Source of the DNA: Ruegeria atlantica
Lineage (GTDB): Bacteria; Pseudomonadota; Alphaproteobacteria; Rhodobacterales; Rhodobacteraceae
Assembly: GCF_013032455.1 (NCBI RefSeq)
Contig: NZ_WQCF01000003.1
Coordinates: 62,001 to 126,000 of the forward strand
DNA length: 64,000 bases
Direction of reading: 5' to 3'
The notes beneath the pieces are model-generated. The model was not told the origin of the DNA. It worked only from the letters and a program-made list of their open reading frames with translations, and made no database searches. A program made the position numbers and the translations under genes. The stretch's first letter is position 1. Each line of letters starts with the position of its first letter. Below are positions 48,346-50,458 of this stretch, in pieces.

Positions 48346-48825
<480 letters not shown>

Positions 48826-48853: not shown

Positions 48854-50458
48854 ATGACGGAATTGCTGACAGCCGCGCAGATGCGCGCCATCGAACAGGC
48901 CGCGATTGACGCCGGTGAGCTGACAGGCCTTGAGCTGATGGAGCGGGCCGGGCGGGGTGTTGTCGAAGCGATTTTTGAAGAATGGCCGGAGTTGGACAGG
49001 CGAGGGGCCAGCCCCTCGCGCTCCCCGGGATATTTGGGGCCAGATGAAGGGAAGCCCTTGCGCGCTGTTGTGCTGTGCGGGCCGGGAAATAATGGGGGTG
49101 ACGGTTTTGTTGTAGCGCGGCTGCTACACGAGCTTGGTTGGGAGATTGATGTTTTTTTGTATGGCGATCCGGAGAAGCTGCCCTCAGACGCGCGAAAGAA
49201 TTATGAGCGGTGGGCAGATCAGGGCATAGTTAAGGTCTATTCGATCAATCCGCCTCCGCTAGTGGATGAATACCTGAAGTTGCCAAACAAAATTGACCTG
49301 ATTGTTGATGGGCTATTCGGAACCGGACTCACACGGCCTCTACAGGGGGTGTTTACGCTGTTGGCGGAGGCAGAGATCAGAAGTCTTTTGCGAAAACACA
49401 GTGTACGTGTCGCCGCAATTGATACGCCAAGCGGTTTGTGCGCTGATAGCGGGCGTGTCATCGGACAAATTATTACCGCTGATCTGACTGTTACATTTCA
49501 TAGTAAGAAGATTGGGCACATGACAGCCAAAGGCCCCGCGAATTGTGGTGTTGTTCGAACCAAACCCATTGGGTTGAGGTCTTCGGAGGGGGATGAAATT
49601 GTGCGCTTGGTTGACCCTGAGGGCGAATTGCATCCCAAGGATACGCCTAGCAACAAATACGCTCACGGCCATGCCCTCATCCTTTCGGGCGGCTCATCGA
49701 AAACCGGTGCAGCGCGGCTGGCGGCGCGGGGTGCTTTGCGCGTTGGAGCTGGTTTGGTGACATTGGGGGTGCCTCTATCCGCCCAGATGGAAGTCGCATC
49801 GCAGGTGACCGCCGTCATGATACAGAGAGTTGAGGGCGCTGATGATTTGTCCGGGGTGCTTTTAGATGAACGGTTGAATACGCTGTGTCTTGGCCCCGGA
49901 TTGGGGCTGGAGCGCGCACGGGAGTTGGTGCCGGTTGTTTTGGACGCAAAACGCGCAACGGTGTTGGATGCGGATGCGCTGACGGCTTTTGCGGATGACC
50001 CTTCAGCATTGTTTGCTCAACTGCACGAAAAATGTGTTTTGACGCCGCATGGCGGGGAGTTTGCGCGGCTGTTTCCTGATCTGTCCGAAAAGCTCGCGGC
50101 TATGCCAACCAAAGGGCCAGCCTATTCCAAGGTGGATGCAGCGCGAGACGCGGCCAAACGGGCAGGCTGTGTGATCCTGTTCAAGGGGCCGGACACTGTG
50201 ATCGCCGCCCCAAACGGTCGTTGCTCGATCAACGCGGCGGTGTATGAGCGCGCGGTTCCGTGGCTGGCGACGGCTGGGTCCGGTGATGTGCTGGCGGGGT
50301 TCATTGCCGGACTGTTGGCACGAGGGTTGGAGCCCATGCAAGCCGCTGAAATGGCGGCTTGGTTGCATGTTGAGTGCGCGCGTAGTTTTGGGCCGGGACT
50401 GATTGCTGAAGATTTGCCCGAGCAACTGCCTAAAGTCTTAAAACAAATGAATATATGA
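48854..50458 (+). CDS. nnr: Bifunctional NAD(P)H-hydrate epimerase / ADP-dependent dehydratase
   Basis: A 534-residue repair enzyme. The N-terminal YjeF domain (to about residue 235) epimerises S/R-NAD(P)HX: VVLCGPGNNGGDGFVVARLL is its signature. The C-terminal ribokinase-like domain dehydrates S-NAD(P)HX using ADP: LSGGSSKTGAARLAARGALR, TPHGGEFARLFPD, FKGPDTVIAAPNGR and GSGDVLAGFIAGLLARG are seen. Together they restore damaged NADH and NADPH. Odd point: residues 49-65 or so (RRGASPSRSPGYLGPDEG) are encoded by an in-frame copy of the GC-rich palindromic repeat found elsewhere between genes; this lies on a surface stretch ahead of the VVLCG strand. GC and codon use are otherwise as in neighbours. 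Confidence 0.93.
   Translation: MTELLTAAQMRAIEQAAIDAGELTGLELMERAGRGVVEAIFEEWPELDRRGASPSRSPGYLGPDEGKPLRAVVLCGPGNNGGDGFVVARLLHELGWEIDVFLYGDPEKLPSDARKNYERWADQGIVKVYSINPPPLVDEYLKLPNKIDLIVDGLFGTGLTRPLQGVFTLLAEAEIRSLLRKHSVRVAAIDTPSGLCADSGRVIGQIITADLTVTFHSKKIGHMTAKGPANCGVVRTKPIGLRSSEGDEIVRLVDPEGELHPKDTPSNKYAHGHALILSGGSSKTGAARLAARGALRVGAGLVTLGVPLSAQMEVASQVTAVMIQRVEGADDLSGVLLDERLNTLCLGPGLGLERARELVPVVLDAKRATVLDADALTAFADDPSALFAQLHEKCVLTPHGGEFARLFPDLSEKLAAMPTKGPAYSKVDAARDAAKRAGCVILFKGPDTVIAAPNGRCSINAAVYERAVPWLATAGSGDVLAGFIAGLLARGLEPMQAAEMAAWLHVECARSFGPGLIAEDLPEQLPKVLKQMNI
49001..49049 (+). repeat. Palindromic repeat copy 2, inside a coding sequence
   Basis: Perfect 8-bp stem CGAGGGGC (49001-49008) / GCCCCTCG (49011-49018), then CGCTCCCCGGGATATTTGGG and GCCAGATGAAG to 49049. 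The last 27 bases match copy 1 (2383-2447) closely, with the same order of stem, C-run, GATATTT and GCCAGATGAAG. It keeps the reading frame open and adds about 17-20 residues to the epimerase domain. Confidence 0.75.

Follow-up and report, generated by a model that had tools for sequence, protein, structure and literature searches.

The nnr gene of Ruegeria atlantica carries an in-frame copy of a short palindromic repeat of the intergenic type. The copy was located by sequence and ORF reading at 49000–49049 on the plus strand of the window, which is the whole stretch of 64,000 nucleotides analysed, and it encodes residues 49–66. We consider it probable that a copy of a non-autonomous palindrome landed in frame in a loop of Nnr, was tolerated there, and has been kept similar to the other copies by copying or conversion. 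The initial annotation had reported an intergenic palindromic repeat within this gene, and its reading is supported in substance. New beyond that reading are the family-wide extent of the repeat, the occupation of the nnr loop in many genera and in three reading frames, the agreement of the tails with the host genome, and a second host gene, xdhA.

Repeat copy in the nnr gene

The nnr ORF (48854–50458, plus strand) encodes a bifunctional NAD(P)H-hydrate epimerase/dehydratase of 534 aa. It contains the Pfam domains YjeF_N (3.4e-40) and Carb_kinase (1e-48), a carbohydrate-kinase-like dehydratase domain, and the top PDB match of its product was Nnr TM0922 (2ax3). The open frame is uninterrupted across the repeat, whose sequence is GCGAGGGGCCAGCCCCTCGC GCTCCCCGGGATATTTGGGGCCAGATGAAG. 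The copy starts with the hairpin GCGAGGGG CCAG CCCCTCGC (49000–49019, plus strand), which folds as an 8-bp stem and is also present in two intergenic copies of the same genome (L013 and L019). The hairpin is followed by GCTCCCCGG-GATATTT-GGG-GCCAGATGAAG; this core and type I tail (49020–49049, plus strand) is read in frame within residues ..RSPGYLGPDE. The gain in fold energy over shuffled sequences was modest, with z = −1.63 for the nnr copy, −1.97 for intergenic copy 1 and −0.47 for intergenic L013.

The alignment of 38 same-genus nnr rows showed that 22 codons (residues 48–69; 48995–49060, plus strand) replace the 5 native-loop codons of the empty allele of congeners. The net difference between the filled and empty alleles is +51 nt, or 17 codons, and a clear target-site duplication is not evident between them. 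The glnB (P-II) ORF (48346–48744, minus strand), which is divergent from nnr, is a conserved neighbour and marks the compared nnr copies as orthologous. Its motif was found near nnr at 43/43, 29/29 and 30/30 loci (102/102 checked), indicating that the compared loci represent the same gene.

The AlphaFold model of Nnr, built with a 42-row alignment, had a mean pLDDT of 90.7. The insert is modelled as the loop between helix 25–43 and strand 70–75 (the α1-β1 loop). The mean pLDDT was 53 in residues 51–60 and 73 in residues 61–70, and the remainder of the model was confident. Given the open frame, the insert is presumably translated as part of Nnr.

Composition and copy number of the repeat family

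In the repeat unit, which is approximately 50–65 nt long, a GC-rich hairpin and a C-run are followed by a GRRRTATTT box, from which a 3-nt spacer separates the A/G-rich tail; a genome has one or a few tail types. Intergenic copy 1 (locus L009; 2383–2447, plus strand) has a type I tail and the T-run GATATTTTTGG, and by ORF scoring it lies between two convergent genes. Its sequence, tail pattern and ORF context agree with its earlier placement as an intergenic copy. The initial annotation had further stated that copy 1 and the nnr copy share the stem, the C-run, GATATTT and the end. The C-run, GATATTT and GCCAGATGAAG are indeed common to both, but the stems differ: that of copy 1 is GAGGGGGC-TTT-GCCCCCTC, accompanied by a second small hairpin.

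The spaced tail pattern matched twice in the window and in 0/100 shuffles. The type I pattern, GGRTATTTN{1,5}GCCAGATGAAG, had 24 matches in the R. atlantica genome, and its reversed form had 0. It was found in 29/61 genomes, namely 29/37 of the same genus and 0/24 of other families. Across the family, it occurred in 8/198 genomes, 6 of them from other genera (6/196). A second tail form, one that occurs in roseobacter sequences, was seen in L090 and then tested as the type II pattern GTATTTN{1,6}AARATGAAG. This pattern had 24 matches in the R. atlantica genome, of which one (in ValS) is a chance match, 0 in the reversed control, and was present in 47/54 genus genomes. The genome-wide count suggested earlier thus gives 24 + 24 pattern matches, with the nnr copy as the one accepted genic copy. 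The common part CCCCGRRRTATTT was present in 165/198 family genomes at up to 177 copies, and the reversed control gave at most 2 per strand.

Pairs of copies in inverted orientation, with the tails facing each other across a central GGATC(C), are seen in L011/L012 (G000:C23:168911-168967), L024 and L022. The 35-base offset of L011/L012 recurs in three genus genomes (G029, G015 and G032) and is BIME-like. The nnr copy is single and is not paired with an inverted partner.

Rfam covariance models gave no gathering match in the window, and at E up to 1 over 9 loci they gave three weak matches, all of them away from the element. The profile Y1_Tnp (PF01797), which we take to be the domain of RAYT, had 0 matches in the R. 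atlantica genome, and 5/14 control genomes were positive, including E. coli and Caulobacter. Neither a mobilising gene nor a target-site duplication was found with this profile on the R. atlantica genome and in the comparison of filled and empty nnr alleles, respectively.

Genomic placement of the copies

The placement of 83 copies was determined in three genomes: the 48 pattern matches of R. atlantica, 16 of the 48 copies listed for G087 and 19 of the 26 listed for G133. The genes are our own calls, predicted as ORFs scored with a hexamer model trained on the window. The copies were tandem forward (28), tandem reverse (21), convergent (26), divergent (2) or inside an ORF (6). By class (tandem or convergent), 75/83 have at least one flanking gene 3′-end. 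By these counts, the typical position of the repeat is close to a gene 3′-end, in either orientation, as for REP sequences.

In our judgement, two of the six ORF-internal copies are truly genic: the nnr copy and the copy in xdhA of G133. Among the 48 strict pattern matches of the R. atlantica genome, the nnr copy was the sole one accepted as genic, and three others were scored as ORF-internal. The match in ValS (L334; YEYLEKDEDG) corresponds to the type II tail and has no hairpin, and it was rejected as chance. L008 overlaps a predicted gene start, and in L322 the overlap is with the 5′-end of a cytochrome-type gene. L345 of G087 was rejected because we judged the predicted start to be over-long. 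A 143-codon open frame over a copy in G004 was also discarded, as this copy is intergenic. The type II tail of L322 (G000:C12:40388-40407) ends in GATGAAG, and ATGAAG may start a secreted cytochrome-type protein; the repeat could have supplied the start codon there.

A T directly after TATTT was found in 150/322 copies listed for ten genomes, compared with 0/10 nnr copies, and 21/49 tandem copies point against their genes. The T-run statistics fit a role of T-run copies in ending transcription, which would be harmful inside a gene. Both orientations occur within tandem gene pairs, so a terminator role is not the only property of the copies, and a purely intrinsic-terminator role was set aside.

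The nnr loop within the genus

Of the 38 same-genus nnr rows, 20 have a short native loop, 16 have the repeat and 2 have other long loops. The short native loop is of the WPELAKTSGRAVV type and has the same length in all 20 rows. Among named sequences, the Ruegeria nnr records L110 and L114 come closest to several genus rows (identity up to 79% and 84%). The tail is of type I in 14 of the filled rows and of type II in 2 (G031 and G103). In G031, the counts across the genome are 37 for type II and 0 for type I, and nnr likewise carries type II. One of the two other long loops, that of G034, has a possible remnant.

The genus rows include several single cases. The most decayed nnr insert is that of G036 (L039), and G034 (L045) has at most a remnant; type I copies are absent from both genomes and type II copies number 1 or 0, respectively, but these are two cases only. 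G001 and G026 have good nnr inserts, yet 0 strict type I copies in their genomes. G004 has 13 type I copies in its genome, and its nnr loop contains no recognisable element.

When the loop is left out of the nnr tree, at least 10 changes of the short-loop label are needed, 8 of them forced by well supported branches. In a tree of glnBA, the neighbouring region, which covers 30 of the rows, 5 changes are required for the filled-versus-other label. The two trees disagree, which indicates that parts of this region are exchanged between species by recombination, and separate insertions inside the genus were therefore left uncounted. The joints of most type A inserts (GGACAG before the hairpin and GGATCC after the tail) are the same in distant species, and part of the scattered distribution is therefore probably due to recombination.

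The nnr loop in other genera

nnr was present in 179/198 family genomes. The sample outside the genus comprised 143 nnr 5′ regions (29 loci and 114 stretches, one of which was the genus genome G103) and 43 named loci (L091–L133). After removal of identical regions and G103, 172 were readable, one of which (L110) is a named Ruegeria; 10 were unreadable, some of these being visibly short. Among the 172 distinct regions, 150 have a short loop, 13 a recognisable element and 9 a longer loop without the element, of which L179 and L102 look like decayed copies. The initial annotation had anticipated that related roseobacters would lack residues 49–66, and the short native loop in 20/38 genus rows and 150/172 further regions is consistent with this. 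Since most of the relatives examined have the short loop, the insert most likely postdates the gene, as had been proposed.

Most of the 13 inserts have other hairpins (e.g., GGGGGCGCTGCCCCC and GCGGGGGCCAGCCCCCGC) and other tails. Two Leisingera inserts, L133 and G201, carry the genus hairpin GCGAGGGG and thus need not be separate insertions. G201 has the nnr insert, yet only 2 pattern copies in its genome. The box is read as TAT-TTx in 9 inserts, as AT-ATT-T in 3 (G133, G087 and L094) and as GTA-TTT in 1 (L121). The family tree, based on 167 columns, was weak, with 9 starred of 176 branches. On this tree, the insert label required 17 changes for 18 rows, and shuffled labels, which required 17.4, were equally scattered. 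We infer that many of the recurrences at the nnr loop outside the genus are separate insertions.

In a few relatives (G194:C1:313773-315356, G244:C1:1617161-1618495 and L283 of G199), the nnr read-through match contains in-frame stops or a stop is located just before NNGGD. L283 also has a GAGTATTT...AAAAGAAGG stretch at the loop. These relatives with internal stops are possibly pseudogenes or assembly errors.

The repeat in the xdhA linker

The xdhA gene of G133 contains an antisense copy of the element, in the stretch for the linker that joins the [2Fe-2S] and FAD domains. We sampled the 30 best-scoring xdhA loci, of which 24 were readable. The antisense box was present in 7 of these 24 (G133, G135, G170, G065, G062, G241 and G091), similar peptides were found in G144 and G142, and 15 had no box. 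The copy listed for G247 likewise falls within its xdhA. All seven inserts are in one reading frame. The linker peptide read from the antisense copies (L374 and those of G135, G170, G065, G062, G241 and G091) contains RGE..GRGAEPP in several cases.

The linker is 56–66 residues long with the element and 43–62 without it, so that the ranges overlap; in the 15 loci with no box it measures 43–59 residues. The solved enzyme of Rhodobacter capsulatus (1jro, 2w3r) aligns over the linker with a net difference of approximately 2 residues, and its linker might hold a relic of the repeat. The overlapping lengths and this alignment make a clean insertion less evident in xdhA than in nnr. With the same frame in 7/7 cases, one old insertion followed by tail conversion explains the xdhA copies as well as repeated insertion does.

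Tails and host genomes

The tails of 11 nnr and 5 xdhA inserts were compared with 423 other copies in 13 genomes, over 18 positions, with the 3-nt spacer excluded and a one-base shift allowed. The inserts were those from genomes with listed copies, which excluded L099, L102 and G178, and G201, with only 2 copies in its genome, was also left aside. For some genomes the comparison covered a subset of the copies, e.g., 9 of 68 for G066, and 15/46 of the R. atlantica matches fall outside the stricter pattern.

A mismatch-free twin elsewhere in the same genome was found for 14/16 inserts, and the remaining two were one base off. On average, a share of 0.52 of the own-genome copies lay within 2 mismatches. 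Neither the number of twins nor the mean share was reached in any of 100,000 shuffles of genome identity. For the nnr inserts alone, the share was 0.588 in the own genome versus 0.116 in other genomes (0/100,000 shuffles). Ranked by share among the 13 genomes, the own genome was first for 7/16 inserts, second for 6, fourth for 2 and eighth for 1 (Leisingera G278). A twin was also present in another genome for 6/16 inserts; tail types recur between genera, and for this reason the own genome is not always at the top.

The tail of the R. atlantica nnr copy is within 2 mismatches of 20/31 other tails scored in the same genome, 19 of which are mismatch-free over the 18 positions. In G135, the usual tail end RTGAA is replaced by RTGAC in 13/17 other listed copies, and the xdhA copy likewise ends in GTGAC. 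Together with the distribution of the repeat, the tails support the suggestion of the initial annotation that the element is mobile or spreads by copying. Copy number and insertion were weakly linked, with p = 0.03 for nnr across the family, p = 0.03 for xdhA and p = 0.09–0.33 within the genus.

Origin and maintenance of the insert

Codons for the same residue were identical in 1063/1094 comparisons (97%) inside the insert (13 inserts of equal length) versus 11265/24379 (46%) in the remaining nnr, where the best of 484 other 17-codon windows reached 66%; pairs of related sequences are not independent here, and the figures are given without a p value. The initial annotation had considered that relatives might encode the same residues with unrelated codons, and the filled genus rows have near-identical ones.

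We propose that a short non-autonomous palindromic repeat was dispersed through the genomes of the family by a copying route, and that one copy landed in frame in the flexible α1-β1 loop of Nnr. Once translated, this copy would form a disordered loop rich in Pro, Ser and Arg that the enzyme tolerates. Its effect on Nnr appears to be about neutral. Recent copying, or gene conversion among the scattered copies, would explain the codon identity and the genome-matched tails. We speculate further that free-living alphaproteobacteria may have an active homogenising system that overwrites dispersed copies, the translated ones included, with the current version, and that the α1-β1 loop of Nnr and the linker of XdhA would be its repeated landing sites; this wider proposal is tentative, and we regard it as possible rather than probable. 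If true, parts of both enzymes would undergo concerted evolution with non-coding sequence.

A different history is that nnr received the repeat once, in an ancient ancestor of the family, and lost it many times, and that gene conversion from the repeats of their own genomes overwrote the surviving copies. The inserts of all genera lie in the same loop, and genome-matched tails fit conversion. In L244, a type II tail lies between flanks that are otherwise shared with the type I rows L030 and L036, and sister species differ in hairpin type (G021 B/G035 A, G029 A/G027 C and G001 A/G026 B). The genus hairpin shared by L133 and G201 and the overlapping xdhA linker lengths led us to give this history more weight. 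On the other hand, 150/172 relatives and 20/38 congeners have the short native loop with no visible scar, and the inserts occupy three reading frames with differing numbers of flanking residues. We therefore consider a single ancient insertion unlikely.

Purifying selection for a role of the DNA or RNA in nnr, such as that of a hairpin that binds a protein or acts in regulation close to the 5′-end and beside glnB, would also account for the codon identity of 97% against 46% elsewhere in the gene. In keeping with such a role, the stem is retained through paired changes across hairpin types A, B and C, and G001 and G026 have good inserts despite their 0 strict type I copies. However, most relatives examined live without the insert, and the 3-nt spacer varies in the nnr inserts as it does in the intergenic copies. 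The most decayed insert and a possible remnant were found in the donor-poor genomes of G036 and G034, respectively, as expected if donors keep the copies alike, although these are two cases and G004 is contrary. Selection for such a role is accordingly hard to favour, and we rate it as improbable.

That the loop is native protein resembling the intergenic copy by chance in GC-rich DNA is extremely improbable: one such match does exist (ValS against the type II tail, with no hairpin), but in nnr the hairpin, C-run, box and tail are all there, the residues are absent from most relatives examined, and the shuffles (0/100), the reversed control (0) and the comparisons with relatives all reject this possibility, which the initial annotation had raised.

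Comparison with known systems

The initial annotation compared the nnr copy with Rickettsia palindromic elements (RPE), a comparison that holds for behaviour but not for size. RPE are dispersed alphaproteobacterial palindromes that lie between genes as well as in frame in conserved genes, where they are apparently tolerated, and they are approximately 105–150 bp long, have a long stem and terminal inverted repeats, and are found in many different genes, according to the available parts of two papers (PMC2229807, PMC10969869). The present repeat is likewise found both within and between genes, with one accepted genic copy (nnr) and the rest of the 48 matches being intergenic, at gene ends or due to chance. 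In contrast to RPE, its unit is approximately 50–65 nt, with a short hairpin and a conserved tail, and it lacks the size, long stem and terminal inverted repeats of RPE. It also differs in being mostly intergenic (three genomes), and its hosts nnr and xdhA are shared across genera. We liken the repeat to RPE by behaviour only and do not claim membership. Wolbachia palindromic repeats are grouped with RPE as similar, as judged from a reference title in the available part of PMC2229807.

The RAYT (Y1) transposase gene is the usual companion of REP sequences. The repeat resembles REP and BIME in its short palindromes, its tens of copies near gene 3′-ends, its two orientations, its rare divergent placement and its inverted pairs. 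It differs from them in that no Y1_Tnp match was found in the R. atlantica genome and in that its coding copies recur at the same loops; REP sequences are described as short palindromes that seldom overlap coding regions in the available part of PMC12306157. MITEs combine terminal inverted repeats with a target-site duplication and a partner transposon; for the present repeat, the comparison covered the filled and empty nnr alleles, where a duplication is not clear, and Y1_Tnp as the partner. The main texts of two REP surveys (PMC3733652, PMC12306157) do not name Rhodobacter, Ruegeria or Roseobacter, and the stem-loop survey PMC2267715 does not name Rhodobacter or Silicibacter. In the literature on Rhodobacterales palindromic repeats and in-frame palindromes, the repeat was not described among the matches listed and cannot on that basis be called unpublished; the matches listed for the tail 10-mer were unrelated.

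RU-1, RU-2, RU-3 and ERIC of enterobacteria are short, mobile intergenic repeats that contain open frames and are also found within genes (PMC2759123, PMC2229807, available parts). At 103–168 bp (PMC2759123, available part), they are longer than the present repeat, and they occur in another bacterial class; these parts showed no case in which the same codon position is occupied in several genera. The available part of the stem-loop survey describes Cod-2 as a small genic repeat read in different frames in various genes (PMC2267715). By this description, the present repeat is similar to Cod-2 in being small and read in different frames, and the genic character of Cod-2 sets it apart.

For Rickettsia, obligate intracellular life and weak selection offer an easy explanation of in-frame repeats. 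The family studied here has genomes of 2–6 Mb, includes marine isolates, and has the same loop occupied in many genera. According to the available parts of PMC2229807 and PMC10969869, in-frame palindromic repeats have been described mainly from Rickettsia and relatives. The host-tracking tails make repeat copying testable by the comparison of sister species, and the filled and empty loops provide a natural experiment on how proteins accept loops born from DNA. The best reading is that the repeat is REP-like and non-autonomous, and is tolerated in translation as RPE are.
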